Below, piece after piece: positions 13,063 through 19,535 of a stretch of DNA of 64,000 nt. Location of the stretch: NCBI GenBank assembly GCA_947492905.1, contig CANLOL010000001.1, positions 1,900,578 to 1,964,577 of the forward strand, written 5' to 3'. How positions within the stretch are numbered: position 1 is the first letter of the stretch; every line of letters starts with the position of its first letter. Position numbers and translations under genes: made by a program. The notes below the pieces were generated by a model. The model was not told where the DNA came from and did no database searches. It saw nothing but the letters and a program-made list of their open reading frames with translations. The DNA comes from an uncultured Sphingorhabdus sp. (GTDB lineage: Bacteria; Pseudomonadota; Alphaproteobacteria; Sphingomonadales; Sphingomonadaceae).

Positions 13063-16000
13063 TTAGTCTGCCTTACTATAATAGTCTTGAAGGCTGCGAA
13101 CTTCAAGTACCTCATTTTTAAGAGCCTCAATAGCCTCTATTACAGCCACACTAGCGGTTGCAGTGGTATAATAGGGTATCCTGCTATTTAGTGATGAAGC
13201 GCGAATAGGTTGCGAATCTTTCAACGATTGCCAGCCTTCGGTAGTGTTAAAGACCAAATCAACCTGATTATCTTTAATCTTATCGACAATATGCGGCCTG
13301 CCTTGCGCCACTTTATTGACTATATCGACTTCTAGGCCATGATCTAACATATATTGTGCCGTGCCGCCGGTGGCGACAATTTTAAAGCCTAAATCAATAG
13401 CTTTCCTAATCCCCGGAAGAATTATTTCTTTATCGCTATCTTTTACAGAGACAAAAATTGTGCCCGCCATTGGCAATTTATTGCCCGCACCTAGCTGTGA
13501 CTTAGCAAAAGCCTTGGCAAATCCAGTGTCAATTCCCATAACTTCGCCCGTTGATTTCATTTCAGGCGACAGCACAGGGTCAATTCCTGGGAAACGCGCA
13601 AATGGGAATACCGCTTCTTTGACGGCTATATGGTCAATATCCAAATCAATCGAAGGCAGATTTGCTAATTTCTCTCCTGCCATAACGCGCGATGCGATTT
13701 TGGCTATGGGCGCACCAATTGCTTTGGCAACAAATGGCACTGTGCGCGATGCTCTAGGATTGACCTCGATAAGATAGACTTCGCCATTTTTCACAGCAAA
13801 TTGCACATTCATTAAGCCGCGCACTTTAAGGCCAACCGCCAATGCAACAGTTTGACGCTTAATCTCTTCGATAATATCATCAGAGAGGCTATGCGGCGGT
13901 ATCGTACAAGCACTATCGCCGCTATGCACGCCCGCCTCTTCAATATGTTGCAGCACGCCTGCGACAATCACATCATCACCATCGGCAATGGCATCAACAT
14001 CAACTTCTGTAGCATCGCGTAAATATTGATCGATTAAAACTGGGCTATCGCCAGATACTTGTACAGCAGTTGCGATATAATCATCTAATTGCTCTGGCCC
14101 ATCAACAATTTCCATCGCGCGCCCACCCAATACATAGGAAGGCCGTATCAAAACCGGATATCCAATATCATTGGCCACTTTAATGGCTTCTTCGCGGCTG
14201 CGCGCTATCCCATTATTGGGTTGTAATAAATTCAAACCATTGACCAAAGCCGCAAAACGCTCTCTATCCTCGGCCAAATCAATCGCATCGGGTGAAGTTC
14301 CCAAGATGGGGATACCTGCATTGGCAAGGCCTTGCGCTAATTTCAGCGGAGTTTGACCGCCAAATTGCACGATAACGCCTTCTAAAGTGCCGTTGCTTTT
14401 TTCTACATGCAATATTTCAAGCACATCTTCATTAGTGAGCGGTTCAAAATAAAGCCTATCGGATGTATCATAATCGGTGGAAACAGTCTCTGGATTACAG
14501 TTGACCATGATGGTCTCAAACCCTGCATCCGCAAGAGCAAAACAAGCATGACAACAGCAATAGTCAAATTCAATGCCTTGCCCGATGCGGTTCGGGCCAC
14601 CGCCTAAAATAACGATTTTTTTGCGTTCCGTGGGCTGAGCTTCGCATTCCGCTTCACCAAAGCTCGGTGCTTCATAAGTTGAATACATATAGGGCGTTAT
14701 CGCTTCAAATTCAGCAGCGCACGTATCTATGCGTTTGTAAACAGGAAGCACGCCATGTTTATGCCGCAGCGCGCGCACTTCTTCCTCTGATGTTGCGCCC
14801 GCCATAGCCGATAATGCTTCTTTGATAAGGCCACCGCCGGCAGCAATGCTGCGCCCTGCACCGCCCGCTACATGCACCGAGTCTATGGCGAGTTTAGCCA
14901 GACGACTATCGGAGAAACCCATTGATTTTAATTTGCGCAATCCTATTGCATCAACGGGCAAACCATTTTTGGTGATTTCTATTTCAGCATCAATAATCCC
15001 GCGAATTTGGCGGATGAACCAAGGTTCAAATTGCGTAACAGCGATTATTTCCTCATTGGTCAAACCTTCGCGCATGGCTTGGGCAATGACCAAAACTCTA
15101 TCGGGGGTTTGCTTTGCCAATTCTGAATTAATGGCATCACGGCTCGCACCCTCAAGCGCGATAAAACGATTAAACCCATCAAGCCCCGTTTCAAGCCCGC
15201 GCAATGCTTTTTGCATCGATTCTTGGAAATTACGGCCAATCGCCATAACCTCACCCACAGATTTCATCGCCGTGGATAATGATGGTTCAGCGCCTTTAAA
15301 TTTCTCAAAAGCAAAGCGCGGAATTTTGGTAACCACATAATCAATCGTTGGTTCAAATGATGCTGGCGTTGCGCCCGTAATATCATTGGTAATTTCATCG
15401 AGCGTATAACCAACCGCAAGCTTTGCCGCCACTTTCGCAATTGGAAAGCCCGTTGCTTTGGATGCCAAAGCCGATGAGCGCGATACGCGCGGGTTCATCT
15501 CTATCACCACCATACGGCCATCTTTGGGATTTACGCCAAATTGTACGTTTGAACCGCCAGTTTCCACGCCAATTTCGCGCAGCACTGCAAGGCTCGCATT
15601 GCGCATGATTTGATATTCTTTGTCCGTCAGTGTCAGCGCCGGCGCCACAGTGATACTATCGCCGGTATGCACGCCCATAGGATCTACATTTTCAATCGAA
15701 CAGATGATGATGCAATTATCGGCGCTATCGCGCACAACTTCCATCTCATATTCTTTCCAACCTATGAGCGATTCATCAATCAGCACCTCATTGGTCGGCG
15801 ATGCTTCCAAAGATGTATTCACATAATGGATAAATTCTTCGCGGTTATAAGCAACACCGCCGCCCGTGCCGCCCATAGTAAAGCTAGGCCGCATAATGGC
15901 GGGCAGACCAATATCATCAAGAATCTCAAGCGCTTGTTCGAGCGTATGTGCGATTTCACTACGCGGGCTTTCTAGGCCGATTTTGTCCATCGCAGCCTTA

Positions 16001-16395
16001 AATTTTTCGCGATCCTCTGCTTTGTCAATGGCTTCTGCATCTGCGCCAATCATTTTGACGCCATATTTATCAAGTACGCCCATTTTATTAAGCGATAGAG
16101 CAGTATTAAGCGCGGTTTGCCCACCCATAGTCGGCAGCACGGCATCGGGACGTTCCTTGGCAATAATCTTTTCGACAATTTCCGGCGTGATAGGCTCGAC
16201 ATAGGTCGCATCCGCCATATCAGGATCGGTCATAATCGTCGCAGGATTGCTATTGACGAGGATGATGCGATACCCCTCCTCTTTCAAGGCTTTACAGGCC
16301 TGCGTCCCACTATAATCAAACTCACAAGCTTGACCGATAATAATCGGCCCTGCGCCAATGATAAGGATGGATTTTATGTCAGTATTTTTGGGCAT
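13063..16395 (-). CDS. carB: Carbamoyl-phosphate synthase large subunit
   Basis: 1110 residues, the expected full length, with GGAG 8 bases upstream of the ATG. Two homologous ATP-grasp halves are readable: the first from [23 protein letters not shown], the second from [24 protein letters not shown], each with the carboxyphosphate or carbamate site ([20 protein letters not shown]) and a [38 protein letters not shown] motif. The C-terminal allosteric MGS-like domain ([18 protein letters not shown]) is present. With CarA it makes carbamoyl phosphate for pyrimidines and arginine. Unusually, carA is 1.8 kb away, and the first 21 bp of this gene recur three times in between. Confidence 0.97.
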
Positions 16396-16476
16396 TTGTT
16401 AACTCCGAAGCCCTCTGTTAAGAGAGTTGAGTGAGGATGAGAGATTGATAAAAGGCTTACCAGCACAGAGCGCGTT

Positions 16477-16791
16477 TTGCGTAAAAATATGACCGATGCT
16501 GAAAAAATCTTGTGGAAACATTTGCGCGCGCGGCAATTGGATAATATCAAATTTGTTCGGCAATTTCCTATTGGTAATGCGGTTGCTGATTTTTCCAGTC
16601 GCAGCGCTAAATTGGTCATTGAATTGGATGGTAGCCAACATGCTGATAATGCGGCTGATATTAAACGAACCGCGATGATTAACGTGCATGGCTATCATGT
16701 CATTCGCTTTGGGAATAATGATGTTCTGAATAATATCGAAGGCGTTATTGAAACGATCCAAGCAGAATTGCGCAATATTAGAGACGAATAA
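16477..16791 (+). CDS. DUF559 (VSR/PD-(D/E)xK nuclease-like) protein, 5' end uncertain
   Basis: 105 codons from TTG at 16477, or 101 from ATG 16489 (MTDAEKILWKHLR). Family-like sequence (ERVLRKNMTDAE) already begins upstream of both, back to an in-frame TGA at 16438, with no ATG or GTG; the original start seems to be lost or an unusual codon is used. Core motifs are intact: KFVRQFPIGNAVADF and LVIELDGSQH (the D...ExDG pattern of the restriction-endonuclease-like fold) and GYHVIRFGNNDVLNNIEGVIETI. DUF559 proteins are small orphan nuclease-like proteins scattered in bacterial genomes. Here it lies antisense between carA and carB, next to GC-rich palindromes. Confidence 0.75.
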   Translation: MRKNMTDAEKILWKHLRARQLDNIKFVRQFPIGNAVADFSSRSAKLVIELDGSQHADNAADIKRTAMINVHGYHVIRFGNNDVLNNIEGVIETIQAELRNIRDE

Positions 16792-16857
16792 TAAGCTCTT
16801 ATTCCTTCGCCCTTGAGAGAGAATATCTGATGGGAAGAGTGAATTCACCTCTTCAAT

Positions 16858-16877
16858 CTTCTCCCTTGAGGGAGAAG
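16858..16877. repeat. Palindromic repeat CTTCTCCCT..AGGGAGAAG
   Basis: A perfect 9-bp stem (16858-16866 with 16869-16877) and a 2-base gap, downstream of the DUF559 gene. A degenerate relative, CGCCCTTGAGAGAGAAT, lies at about 16809-16825. It resembles the widespread CTCTCCC/GGGAGAG REP-like elements often seen near DUF559 genes. Confidence 0.55.
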
Positions 16878-16977
16878 GATATGTAATCTTGCCAGCTTGC
16901 TGGTTAGATGAAGTTGGATGAGGGCGAACAACCACCAATCTATTATTATCAATAATCAAAGTGCCCCCTCACCCCAA

Positions 16978-17000
16978 CCCTCTCCCCCACAGGGAGAGGG
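16978..17000. repeat. REP-like palindrome CCCTCTCCC..GGGAGAGGG
   Basis: A perfect 9-bp stem (16978-16986 with 16992-17000) and a 5-base loop, preceded by CCCCTCACCCCAA. This is the recognisable core of a family of short palindromes dispersed in many proteobacterial genomes. It directly abuts the carB-start repeat copy at 17022-17042. Confidence 0.65.
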
Positions 17001-17021
17001 AGTGACGCAATGTGCCAAATC

Positions 17022-17042
17022 TATGTCAGTATTTTTGGGCAT
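17022..17042 (-). repeat. carB 5'-end repeat, copy B
   Basis: Identical over 21 bp to codons 1-7 of carB (ATG through ATA). Its ATG overlaps the TAA stop of the gene at 17042-17599 (TAATG), the same junction form as after carA. Reading on from this ATG gives a 28-codon frame (MPKNTDIDLAHCVTPSP...) that runs into the palindrome and stops at 16956; it looks like a by-product rather than a gene. Confidence 0.85.
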
Positions 17043-17599
17043 TATTTTATCTTTTTCGAATAATTTACACACATGCCAAGGTGGCCTTTATGAAGTGCTA
17101 GGCATCTATTATTTAGATTAGAAAATATATTATGAGAGTTTTTTGTAAAAGTTTCAAAAGACTCAACAAATTCGGTATAACCTTCTGTCCATTCCGTTTT
17201 TAATAATCTTATTTTATTATCGTCTATGCCGCATTCATATAAGGCTGATTTAATTCTTTCAGAAATCAAATCATGTGATTTTTTTGGATTATCAATATAA
17301 AAGTAATCCACAGGTTTAATAAAACCTGCACATTCACCATTGTTAGAATAATATGAGGTACGAAGCTTAATTCCATCATCGTTTATATTAATATTTGTAA
17401 TGTTCTGTGTATCATTCCAATGAAGAATTACATCAGTCCCAGACTTTGCTTGATGGAACGGCCTATTTTCTGTCCACTCCCATTTAATTACAGAAACCGA
17501 AAAATTACCATTAAATTCTTCTTTCAAGGTTTCGGTTTTTGGTGATTGATATGTATTCAGCATCAAAAATAGTAATAAAGTTGAAGAAACAATATTCAT
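17042..17599 (-). CDS. Uncharacterised secreted protein in the carA-carB gap
   Basis: 185 residues. A hydrophobic N-terminus (MNIVSSTLLLFLMLNTYQS) looks like a signal peptide, followed by a polar, Trp- and Asn-containing domain with three Cys in the mature region and a basic C-terminal tail. I recognise no family. The start ATG overlaps the stop of the 31-codon frame made by repeat copy C (ATGA), and its own stop overlaps repeat copy B (TAATG), so it sits exactly inside one repeat-bounded unit. Visibly AT-rich codons (many AAT, ATT, TTA) differ from the flanking car genes, which fits recent acquisition. Confidence 0.7.
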   Translation of the reverse strand: MNIVSSTLLLFLMLNTYQSPKTETLKEEFNGNFSVSVIKWEWTENRPFHQAKSGTDVILHWNDTQNITNININDDGIKLRTSYYSNNGECAGFIKPVDYFYIDNPKKSHDLISERIKSALYECGIDDNKIRLLKTEWTEGYTEFVESFETFTKNSHNIFSNLNNRCLALHKGHLGMCVNYSKKIK

Positions 17600-17691
17600 A
17601 GCAAACCACCCCTTTGCGCGTATCCCAATTGCAATGACATCAGCATAGCGCCGATGATAAGGATGAATTTTATATCAGTATTTTTGGGCAT
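17596..17691 (-). CDS. 31-codon frame created by a diverged carB 5' duplication
   Basis: Starts at repeat copy C and reads [20 protein letters not shown]..., with TGA overlapping the ATG of the next gene. The first 44 nucleotides match carB with three differences (all C/T), then similarity fades. The product would be a carB N-terminus turned into a signal-peptide-like sequence (hydrophobic stretch followed by GYAQ). It may be only a translational relay to the gene at 17599, or a dead duplication. Coding status is uncertain. Confidence 0.35.
   Translation of the reverse strand: MPKNTDIKFILIIGAMLMSLQLGYAQRGGLL
17648..17691 (-). repeat. carB 5'-end repeat, copy C (extended, 44 nt)
   Basis: 41 of 44 positions equal the start of carB (16352-16395). 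The three mismatches are C/T differences at positions 18, 26 and 39 of the repeat, so this is the oldest-looking or most drifted copy and the longest. It lies 18 bp beyond the stop of the lipoprotein gene at 17709. Confidence 0.8.
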
Positions 17692-17708
17692 TATTTTTAT
17701 TCTTCATC

Positions 17709-18191
17709 CTAACGCTTTGAATTATCATTATTTTCAATAAAATACCTTAAATTTATCAAATTCACATTATCACTTATATTATCACAACCTATTGTAATAA
17801 CTTCATATAATGAGTTTTCTGGTAAACTTATTTTATATGCTTTTAGTTTTTCGGAAGCAAAATAGGTAGCTTCTCCTTCATCTAATTTTTCATTTAAGAA
17901 ATTAGACCTAATTGAATCAGAATTAGAATTAGTTAGTGTTGTGCGGTCAGGTTTTTTCCAAGCATTATAGCCATTTTCTTCTATTTGATTCTGCAATTCT
18001 GATGATAATCTACTTACATCATAAGTTAATTCGCTTGTTACTCTTGCTGACTTGAGAAATGCATCATGTGCCCCTCCTTTATATCGTTCTTTACAGCTTT
18101 TTTGAGTTTGAGCTTCACATCCAGATAATAATAAAGTTACAGCTATAAAAGCTATTGGAACAAAAAGTCTTATGTCAGTATTTTTGGGCAT
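17709..18191 (-). CDS. Lipoprotein with an N-terminus captured from carB
   Basis: 160 residues. Residues 1-7 (MPKNTDI) are identical to the N-terminus of CarB and are encoded by repeat copy D. They are followed by a hydrophobic core and a lipobox, RLFVPIAFIAVTLLLSGC, with Cys25 the predicted lipidation site. The mature part (EAQTQKSCKERYKGGAHDAFLK...) has one pair of further Cys and is Ser/Asn-rich; no family recognised. The start codon overlaps the carA stop by one base (TAATG), so translation is coupled to carA. AT-rich codon use unlike carA and carB. Confidence 0.72.
   Translation of the reverse strand: MPKNTDIRLFVPIAFIAVTLLLSGCEAQTQKSCKERYKGGAHDAFLKSARVTSELTYDVSRLSSELQNQIEENGYNAWKKPDRTTLTNSNSDSIRSNFLNEKLDEGEATYFASEKLKAYKISLPENSLYEVITIGCDNISDNVNLINLRYFIENNDNSKR
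18171..18191 (-). repeat. carB 5'-end repeat, copy D (at the carA stop)
   Basis: 21 bp identical to codons 1-7 of carB. The ATG overlaps the carA stop as TAATG, which is the expected form of an undisturbed carA-carB overlap. The true carB at 16395 instead has a different upstream sequence (GGAGTTAACAA), so this copy probably marks the original junction. Confidence 0.85.
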
Positions 18192-19384
18192 TAATCCAAA
18201 CCACCGACAAATTTCTCAAACAGATAAAAGCTATCTTGTGGACCGGGGGATGCTTCGGGGTGATATTGCACGCCAAAGGCCTTTTTGCCGATAATCTCTA
18301 TGCCGCAATTGCTGCCATCAAACAGGCTCTTGTGCGTCTCGCGCACGCTATCGGGCAATGTATTGCCATCAACCGCAAAACCATGGTTCATACTGGTAAT
18401 CTCAACAAGGCCTTCGCTGTCGTTCCAGCCAGCCCCAACGCGTTGCACAGGGTGGTTCGCGCCCCGATGCCCTTGGTGCATTTTCACGGTCTTTGCACCC
18501 GCCGCTAGAGCGAGCATTTGATGCCCCAAACAGATGCCAAATATCGGCACATCTTTTTCAAGCAGCTCTTGAATGACGGGCACAACATATGCACCCGTAG
18601 CCGCTGGATCACCAGGGCCATTGGATAGAAATACGCCATCAGGTTTTAACGCCATAATATCGGCGGAACTAGTTTTGGCATTAACTACAGTGACTTTTGC
18701 GCCAGCTTTCACAAGATTTCTAAATATATTGCGTTTTGCACCAAAATCCATCGCCACGACATGCGGGCGTTTTTCATTACCATCAAGCGGTGCATAACCA
18801 TGACCAAGCTGCCATGTGCCGCTGTCCCATATGCGCGTTTGATCGCCCGTTACATCGGCGGCAAGGTCTAATCCCTCTAAACCGCTCCATGCTTTTGCTT
18901 TGCCGATCAGCTCATCCATATCGAACTGCCCATCTGGATTGTGCGCAATGACGGCATTAGGCGCACCAGACAGCCTGATGAAGCGCGTCAATGCGCGTGT
19001 ATCCACACCAGAAAGGCCAATACGGCCAGTGGCACTCATCCAATCTCTGAAATCGCCAGTGCTGCGGAAATTAGCAGGCTCGGTAATATCTTCGCGCACG
19101 ATACATCCTAAAGCTTGCGGGCTATCGGCTTCTATATCTTCGTCATTTGCGCCAACATTGCCAATGTGCGGGAAAGTGAAAGTGATAATTTGCCCAGCAT
19201 AGCTAGGGTCTGTCATAGTTTCCTGATAGCCAGTAATCGCAGTGTTAAAGCATACCTCGCCAACTGCGCTGCCCACTGCGCCAAAACCATGACCCCAAAT
19301 GACCTTGGTCGCGCCAGTGGGACTAACCAATAGCAAAACCCCTGTTGCACCAATTGGAGCGGGCGGGATCTGTATATCGGTCAT
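18191..19384 (-). CDS. carA: Carbamoyl-phosphate synthase small subunit (glutaminase)
   Basis: 397 residues, ATG with AAGGA 7 bases upstream. The N-terminal CPSase domain (GEVCFNTAITGYQETMTDPSYAGQIITFTFPHIGN) is followed by a class I glutamine amidotransferase domain: FLSNGPGDPAA, the nucleophile loop FGICLGHQML with the catalytic Cys, and the QYHPEASPGPQD motif with His and Glu. It hydrolyses glutamine and channels ammonia to CarB. The stop overlaps an ATG that belongs to a copy of the carB start, but carB proper begins 1.8 kb further on. Divergent from yqeY with a 151-bp spacer. Confidence 0.97.
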   Translation of the reverse strand: MTDIQIPPAPIGATGVLLLVSPTGATKVIWGHGFGAVGSAVGEVCFNTAITGYQETMTDPSYAGQIITFTFPHIGNVGANDEDIEADSPQALGCIVREDITEPANFRSTGDFRDWMSATGRIGLSGVDTRALTRFIRLSGAPNAVIAHNPDGQFDMDELIGKAKAWSGLEGLDLAADVTGDQTRIWDSGTWQLGHGYAPLDGNEKRPHVVAMDFGAKRNIFRNLVKAGAKVTVVNAKTSSADIMALKPDGVFLSNGPGDPAATGAYVVPVIQELLEKDVPIFGICLGHQMLALAAGAKTVKMHQGHRGANHPVQRVGAGWNDSEGLVEITSMNHGFAVDGNTLPDSVRETHKSLFDGSNCGIEIIGKKAFGVQYHPEASPGPQDSFYLFEKFVGGLD

Positions 19385-19535
19385 GTCTTTTTCCTTTTGT
19401 GGAGCTGTTTTATTTTATGCCAAAGTTTCGGCTCACTAATGCAGGAAAAATTTGTGTTCAATCTATGAAAAATATTATCTTCCCGCTATGTTGGTAACTT
19501 ATTCCTAAAAACATAGCCATATGAAGTGATTTTTT

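Follow-up and report, generated by a model that had tools for sequence, protein, structure and literature searches.

Copies of the carB start between carA and carB in Sphingomonadaceae: a variable gene slot with a possible homing-type DUF559 guest

Introduction

Where no integrase is involved, the way in which single genes enter bacterial operons is difficult to follow, since a clean replacement shows nothing of the event. For the orphan immunity gene arrays of the Vibrio type VI secretion system, a model of homology-facilitated illegitimate recombination has been proposed, with ordinary homologous replacement thought to be commoner (PMC5361080). The free-standing homing genes of T4-like phages spread by cutting alleles from which they are absent, as has been shown for some and presumed for others (PMC2988022). 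Here we describe the junction of carA and carB in a 64,000-nucleotide stretch of DNA (hereafter, the window) from an uncultured Sphingorhabdus sp. of the Sphingomonadaceae (assembly GCA_947492905.1, contig CANLOL010000001.1, positions 1,900,578 to 1,964,577), where copies of the carB start bound three inserted units and the unit nearest carB encodes a DUF559 endonuclease-like protein. Across the family, such stranded copies, or scars, record events in at least a dozen genomes and make the question of integrase-less gene entry testable.

The DUF559 domain is still named in Pfam as being of unknown function. One DUF559 gene has been assigned to the EDxHD family of homing endonucleases (PMC9403480), and a study of Legionella evolution presents a segment with a transposase and DUF559 as a hotspot; the passages of the DUF559 literature that we examined do not describe the carA-carB slot. 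Literature searches on carA-carB intergenic insertion in Sphingomonas and on duplicated gene starts returned nothing. A preliminary description of the window had read the locus as repeated insertion of single-gene units after codon 7 of carB, each insertion leaving a rebuilt carB start, with no candidate mover. The analysis below partly supports and extends that insertion reading and proposes a mover.

Results

Copies of the carB start in the window

The window holds an intact carB (13063..16395, minus strand) that follows carA (18191..19384, minus strand) after a gap of 1795 bp. The carB start, ATGCCCAAAAATACTGACATA, is present as exact copies ending at 16395, 17042 and 18191, and with one change (GATATA) at 17691; all four lie in one orientation, at spacings of 647, 649 and 500 bp. 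Copy 1 (18171..18191, minus strand, 21 of 21 bases) overlaps the carA stop as TAATG and doubles as codons 1-7 of the unit-3 open reading frame (ORF). Copy 2 (17638..17691, minus strand) is the longest, at 54 bp including one flank base and with 87% identity; copy 3 (17022..17042, minus strand, 21 of 21 bases) is the scar adjoining the DUF559 unit, and copy 4 is the first 21 bases of carB itself. A whole-genome search with the first 20 bases of carB, allowing up to three mismatches, recovered these four sites only (a reversed control pattern matched once), and a repeated 20-mer appeared in none of 2000 mononucleotide shuffles of 16375-18191. Coordinates, search and shuffles thus confirm the four copies, their spacings and the TAATG overlap as first described.

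As a control for repeats at gene ends in the same genome, we surveyed 407 ORFs of at least 100 amino acids within 465 kb. Besides carB and pntAB, this returned six regions of tandem paralogues with long matches, and about seven short matches (21-51 nucleotides) with no paralogue behind them where checked; one of the latter is a 23-nucleotide repeat over a start codon, 71 bp away.

Scars and slot genes in relatives

The junction was compared in 130 other genomes (G numbers; loci carry L numbers), in 126 of which the carA-carB interval was measured, L010, L035, L161 and L217 having no measured carA end; 18 loci that repeat a genome held under another locus were left out of the interval, 5'-divergence and direction analyses. 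The interval is between -1 and 2202 bp long and is in most cases occupied by small ORFs of varied kinds: 15 intervals are of 5 bp or less, two of 6-59 bp, 22 of 60-199 bp, 50 of 200-599 bp and 37 of 600 bp or more, so that 87 of the 126 reach 200 bp. Eight of the 15 empty junctions are a 1-bp overlap of stop and ATG. Relatives therefore vary in the number and content of genes at this position and include direct carA/carB junctions, as the preliminary description had expected; neither fixed gene content nor repeats unrelated to carB were seen among them.

A scan for scars covered 110 intervals from 109 genomes (L165 repeats one), with 60 shuffles per test and one or two chance matches expected. 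Ten of the 109 filled intervals contain a stranded fragment of the 5' end of the local carB with another insert downstream of it (G139, G156, G067, G158, G166, G153, G124, G043, G057 and G027), and an eleventh scar lies in G130 (L161), where carA is out of reach. Weak matches in L034 and L206 were not counted; L048, the weakest match counted, was not recovered on a second analysis. The scars of relatives are 22-134 bp long and begin at the carB ATG or one base before it, with two exceptions that align further upstream at about 80% identity: the G158 scar, over 23 nucleotides, and the second G139 scar, over 14. Their far ends vary, from about +21 to +130 of carB. Because the break points vary, insertion is not tied to codon 7, and the earlier proposal of that codon as a rule does not hold. 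The other 99 filled slots contain no detectable carB copy; a rebuilt start is therefore a minority outcome, or one that decays. Inserts bounded by copies of the local carB 5' end, as the preliminary description had predicted, are present in the 10 intervals named above. Among the matches listed for named genomes, scars are present in five of the 11 DUF559 loci that hold both carA and carB.

What follows a scar differs between genomes. It is DUF559 in the window, in G043, G124, G158 and G027, and after the first scar of G139, and a sense lipoprotein-like gene in other genomes. G139, G156 and G067 have after a scar an antisense pair that, judged by motif, is probably toxin-antitoxin-like; at the loci L230 (of G139), L171 and L162 (of G067), in three genera, the antisense pair between scar and carB is presumably, again by motif, a PIN-type toxin with an antitoxin-like partner. 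Several slot ORFs are fused in frame to the start of CarB (MPKRSDIYC.., MPKRTAISY.., MPKCTHILS.., MPNRADISSIL..), and the lipoprotein-like chimeras suggest that the start of a housekeeping enzyme can give rise to the head of a new secreted protein.

Slot genes are often packed tightly against the operon. In the 80 genomes with a sense slot ORF, the first ORF overlaps the carA stop by 4 bp in 62, and the carB ATG overlaps the stop of the last by 1 bp in 39; these ORFs are mechanical calls with a bonus for sense frames at the carA stop, and some of them lie opposite DUF559, which biases the overlap counts upward. A family scan of 92 of 110 slot ORFs (the 18 left out being mainly frames opposite DUF559 or toxin-antitoxin-like genes) assigned four to DUF6680, two to DUF4177, one to DUF559, with a match to MTES_1575 too, and one to DUF695. 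Proteins with an RraB domain are the commonest recognisable slot genes of relatives (15 of the 92 ORFs). PADLOC returned a single weak match on these 92 ORFs, to LmuA (5.8e-4). The slot thus combines high turnover between conserved genes with an absence of mobility genes, the pattern of integrase-less hotspots.

These observations bear on two models in which the units would be mobile in their own right. In the first, single-gene units with a built-in carB start are inserted by some site-specific enzyme, as the nearly invariable beginning of the copies at ATG and the three successive units of the window might suggest. Yet the scar ends range from about +21 to +130, most slot genes have no carB copy, and the units have no other sequence in common, nor did their ORFs match an integrase or transposase in Pfam or NCBIfam; a uniform cassette of the kind first described appears highly improbable. 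The second, transposition with long target duplications, would account for the direct repeats flanking the inserts and for DUF559 lying between palindromic repeats at many loci. A target duplication, however, is expected to have neither edge at a fixed point, whereas one edge here sits at the carB ATG; the repeats also run from 21 to 134 bp rather than to a fixed length, and in the lack of a transposase match among the unit ORFs we find this model scarcely credible. An integron cassette array was rejected, since the boundary repeats are carB coding sequence and no integrase matched among the unit ORFs, as was serial local duplication, which leaves the unrelated genes of each unit unexplained.

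DUF559 at the slot

DUF559 occupies the slot in 14 of the 130 relatives, antisense to car in every case. A scan of named genomes, in which 80 of 579 relatives were listed, gave 13 slot loci among these 80 (one apparently the G151 contig), again antisense in 13 of 13; the genera listed include Novosphingobium, Porphyrobacter, Pontixanthobacter, Erythrobacter and Citromicrobium, with an Altererythrobacter metagenome-assembled genome, Sphingomonas changbaiensis and others. The family as a whole was found in 128 of 149 genomes of Sphingomonadaceae. In a 106-row fasttree tree built on few columns, DUF559 proteins cluster by site, with 10 changes of site label where shuffling gave a mean of 29.4 (none of 200 shuffles as low). 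A 36-row tree places 19 slot proteins in one group, with a support of 92 in the Shimodaira-Hasegawa-like approximate likelihood ratio test (SH-aLRT), and six more slot copies outside it; one genus carries two DUF559 clades in the slot.

The protein of the window matches PF04480 (E 7e-35) and PDB entry 3hrl, 'Endonuclease-Like Protein' (E 5.8e-20), a nuclease fold by sequence only. The slot gene therefore has the features of a homing gene in several respects: a nuclease-fold protein as judged by sequence, one patchily occupied site with empty alleles, and site-bound lineages across species. The preliminary description had found no candidate mover; the carB-proximal unit provides one, and members of its family sit next to gene-end duplications in three further operons.

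Diverged carB 5' ends beside DUF559

Where DUF559 is in the slot, the beginning of carB is unusually diverged. For each genome the divergence of the first 45 nucleotides of carB was set against that of the rest, as a ratio to the nearest genome without slot DUF559 and scars. This ratio is 2.25 with slot DUF559 (n=12) and 1.07 in others (n=100; p=5e-5), and the excess is located in the first 30 nucleotides. The DUF559 set of 16 included L010, where DUF559 was not seen beside carB, and the window, L037, L038 and L232 were dropped from it by the divergence limit. Repeated without two related rows, with L010 and L048 left out, the test gave 1.99 (n=10, p=0.0005); a second, named set gave 1.64 (n=10, p=0.003), from which L291, which seems to be the G151 contig, and L293, with its truncated carB, were left out and L334 was dropped by the divergence limit. 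The negative control, DUF559 near the gene divergent from carA (presumably yqeY-like; hereafter the yqeY site), gave 0.78 (n=12, p=0.92); L171 sits in both the scar set and this control list. All are Mann-Whitney tests, which treat related genomes as independent.

Some unusual starts recur in different genomes: G151 and L294 both have MPRRTDIQS with similar codons, and G124 and L286 both have CCT AAA CGT ACA. The altered carB start beside DUF559 may hint at resistance to cutting. Alternatively, such starts might have changed in place, compensating for the coupling to carA that is lost when an antisense gene is inserted, and the confinement of the excess to the 30 nucleotides where translation starts would agree with this. 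But their AT content is hardly raised (0.494 vs 0.480), each of the two pairs just named has its unusual codons in common, and the scars beside inserts other than DUF559 come without an excess (n=6); antisense inserts other than DUF559 are few. We regard compensation as unlikely, though as deserving some weight.

DUF559 at other sites

The genome of the window has a second DUF559 gene (L046:5260-5628; C1, about 1614260-1614628), between pntAA and pntAB and with palindromes of the repetitive extragenic palindromic (REP)-like type. A diverged copy of the pntAB start lies beside the pntAA stop in the species of the window and in two sisters. Within the genus, DUF559 precedes pntAB in nine of 32 loci, two of the 32 having been chosen for DUF559, and the pntAA-pntAB gap is 9-11 bp in 19 of 31 measured loci. 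In G027 a copy of 70-83 bp of a start that we take, from the protein end, to be that of a biotin-carboxylase-like gene flanks DUF559. In G027 and G019 (L092, L067), DUF559 is downstream of what is presumably a sufB-like gene, whose 3' end recurs on the far side of DUF559, a mirror of the start scar.

Two further candidates were rejected. The direct repeats beside most DUF559 loci are REP-like palindromes and not copies of gene ends, and the DUF559 gene about 600 bp upstream of carA, at first considered a second car site, lies beyond the divergent yqeY-like gene and is a separate site.

The units of the window and its sister species

Unit 3 is a 160-amino-acid lipoprotein-like ORF (17709..18191, minus strand) whose product opens with MPKNTDI, the N terminus of CarB, and continues, as judged by eye, with a lipoprotein-type signal. 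Copy 2 opens a 31-codon leader (17596..17691, minus strand) that is signal-peptide-like and whose stop overlaps the start of unit 2, a 185-amino-acid ORF (17042..17599, minus strand). Units 2 and 3 belong to no family in Pfam or NCBIfam, and their proteins have no match among 198 other Sphingomonadaceae genomes; both are AT-rich, with a guanine-plus-cytosine content of 31.5% and 29% respectively, against 47% for carB and 51% for carA. A search of Rfam at E 0.1 over 16000-19500 returned nothing.

The DUF559 unit, adjoining carB, spans 16396-17041 and consists of the endonuclease-like gene (16477..16791, plus strand and so antisense to car, with an open frame from 16441 onwards and an uncertain start codon) and REP-like palindromic stretches at about 16800..17010 (of the CCCTCTCCC..GGGAGAGGG type). 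Its end just before carB (16396..16440, minus strand) is common to G043 and G038 and includes a GGAG that, by eye, may be a ribosome site. One gene per interval had been reported; this stands for all three, except that the gene nearest carB is on the opposite strand and has no ATG, GTG or TTG where the sister species has its ATG.

The sister species G043 and G038 are 98% and 97% identical to the window in the N-terminal part of CarB and carry the DUF559 unit at the equal position, broken in G038. On the carA side of it, G043 has an unrelated 273-amino-acid gene and a carB-start copy with one change, and G038 only a degenerate copy. Since the content on the carA side differs among these three close species, that side has turned over since their split.

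Other observations

Several further features were noted. In the same genome, a copy of about 27 nucleotides (28 as matched) of the 3' end of a fumarase gene lies 347 bp downstream of it, without DUF559 (C1 243061-244912; L259, L260), a possible 3'-end scar. Two tandem sets of small membrane-protein-like paralogous ORFs (C1 240219-241767 and 268668-270124) each lie near a helix-turn-helix-like ORF, and at C1 93374-93924, adjoining a DsbA-like gene, a near-identical stretch occurs twice, 115-125 bp apart, with two similar basic ORF starts (MPFRKHLIRKKKSDRN..). DUF559-like matches at G016:C4:201018-201257 and G007:C1:3028-3318 fall inside very long open frames (1121 and 1927 amino acids), possibly as domains of large proteins.

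Discussion

We lean, with some reserve, towards an account in which one-sided recombination adds genes to the carA-carB junction and leaves the scars, and in which DUF559 is a homing-type guest there. The junction would act as an integrase-less gene slot. Incoming DNA would carry a gene with a carB start downstream; the carB side would be joined by homologous recombination, and carB would stay intact because that side joins by homology. The junction on the other side would need no homology and would fall within the initial tens of bases of the resident carB, so that a 5' scrap of this gene would remain as the scar. Repeated events of this kind would stack genes serially, as in the window. Homology-facilitated illegitimate recombination predicts what is found: a seamless carB on one side, and on the other a scar with a variable end. 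The likeness of scar and real carB would begin only at about the ATG because donor and recipient have carB in common and not the sequence before it. That the nonhomologous join falls within the carB 5' end may be explained by the fate of joins elsewhere, since a join further upstream would disrupt carA or an earlier guest without producing a scar, and one further downstream would create long, unstable repeats.

DUF559 offers a plausible cutter, which would have cause to come back to the same site, as do the free-standing homing genes of T4-like phages. The recurrent guest, as we picture it, would consist of REP-like palindromes and a DUF559 gene of PD-(D/E)XK type, and would probably spread by cutting or nicking uninserted carB starts and then being copied in, bringing with it an altered carB 5' end of about 30 nucleotides.

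Several observations weigh against this account. About half of the scars precede genes other than DUF559, and scar-only genomes have no clear excess of carB 5' divergence (1.23, n=6, p=0.31). At other sites, the majority of DUF559 loci have REP-like repeats beside them, or nothing. The DUF559 of the window has ATT where its sister G043 has ATG, and a glycine in place of a tryptophan kept in most slot relatives; because of these changes it is possibly decaying, and it may be inactive. DUF559 proteins may also do other work, for example of the kind proposed for the Vsr-like protein of Caulobacter (PMC12907096). The divergence of DUF559 mostly tracks or exceeds that of carA, its identity being above that of carA in one pair only (71 vs 69%), which makes transfer a tentative reading.

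The direction of change is likewise mixed. In the lineage of the window, which lies outside the 5' test, scar and real start are the same over 21 bp. Of nine direction events in genomes with slot DUF559, the scar is closer to relatives in four, with the real carB start as the odd one (G124, G027, L286 and L294), the real start is closer in four, and one is a tie (G158); the four with the closer real start are three with decayed scars, which give no direction, and G139 (L230), scored on the scar before its toxin-antitoxin-like pair. Four events elsewhere divide into one with the scar closer and three with the real start closer. Direction was not scored for the window, G043, G067 (L162) or G130 (L161). 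This mixed result led us to drop the idea of the real carB start being, in every case, the imported copy.

It is also possible, if rather less probable, that the slot is a plain recombination hotspot, in which relatives with different slot genes recombine their car operons by way of natural transformation or conjugation. Exchange on both sides would replace one slot gene by another, a rare exchange on one side would leave a scar, and DUF559 would be one passenger among many. The very varied slot content and the half of the scars without DUF559 speak for such a hotspot, and hotspots of this integrase-less sort, flanked by core genes that recombine, have been described (PMC5635113). Against this, DUF559 clusters by site and recurs at the slot in many genera, and the divergence of the carB 5' end accompanies slot DUF559 and neither scars alone nor DUF559 at the yqeY site.

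More speculatively, the same sequences would allow a broader view of one-sided recombination with a homing guest, which we put forward as unlikely to hold in full. DUF559 genes with their REP-like palindromes could be chromosomal homing-type elements that target the gene ends of core operons and carry an altered, cut-resistant copy of the end they break, a natural home-and-rescue drive; repeated breaks in carB starts would make the junction a slot that traps other genes, and some of the trapped genes would use the carB start to begin translation and to head a signal peptide. If true, homing combined with a built-in rescue of an essential gene would account for some DUF559 genes of Sphingomonadaceae.

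Comparison with known systems

The Vibrio immunity arrays are alike in that one end is anchored by homology and the other is nonhomologous, and successive events extend the array while parts of the resident gene stay behind (PMC5361080). Here, however, a gene of pyrimidine and arginine biosynthesis serves as the anchor, with its 5' start as the remnant; the genes added bear no relation to the anchor, and a nuclease-like guest recurs. In both cases recombination is a proposed model. The integrase-less transfer hotspots of PMC5635113 likewise have genes coming and going between a pair of core genes, with neither integrase nor transposase, whereas the present slot is inside an operon, often holds small genes with overlaps of 1-4 bp, and carries scars.

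The T4-like free-standing homing genes, for example mobE between nrdA and nrdB, are similarly small nuclease genes, free of intron or intein, between conserved genes of an operon (PMC2988022). Our case differs in its bacterial chromosome, its DUF559 family and REP-like flanks, the duplicated gene ends, and the altered start of the next gene; the T4 enzymes, as reported there, cut hundreds to thousands of bp from the insertion site, while any target here would be at the site. The EDxHD homing endonucleases, such as I-Bth0305I, have a comparable restriction-enzyme-like active site, but I-Bth0305I is described as multi-domain and dimeric with a target near 60 bp (PMC3943268), and the protein here is stand-alone and of about 104-120 amino acids. 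VsrA of Caulobacter has in common with it the DUF559 domain, membership of the PD-(D/E)XK superfamily and an alphaproteobacterial host, although VsrA is tied to cytosine methylation and a proposed role in mismatch repair, and the portion of that work at hand mentions no site-bound operon inserts (PMC12907096). Finally, if the homing reading is right, the locus would resemble synthetic home-and-rescue drives, in which an endonuclease travels with an altered copy of its essential target (PMC7968924), with the difference that the drive proposed here would be natural and bacterial, and is inferred.

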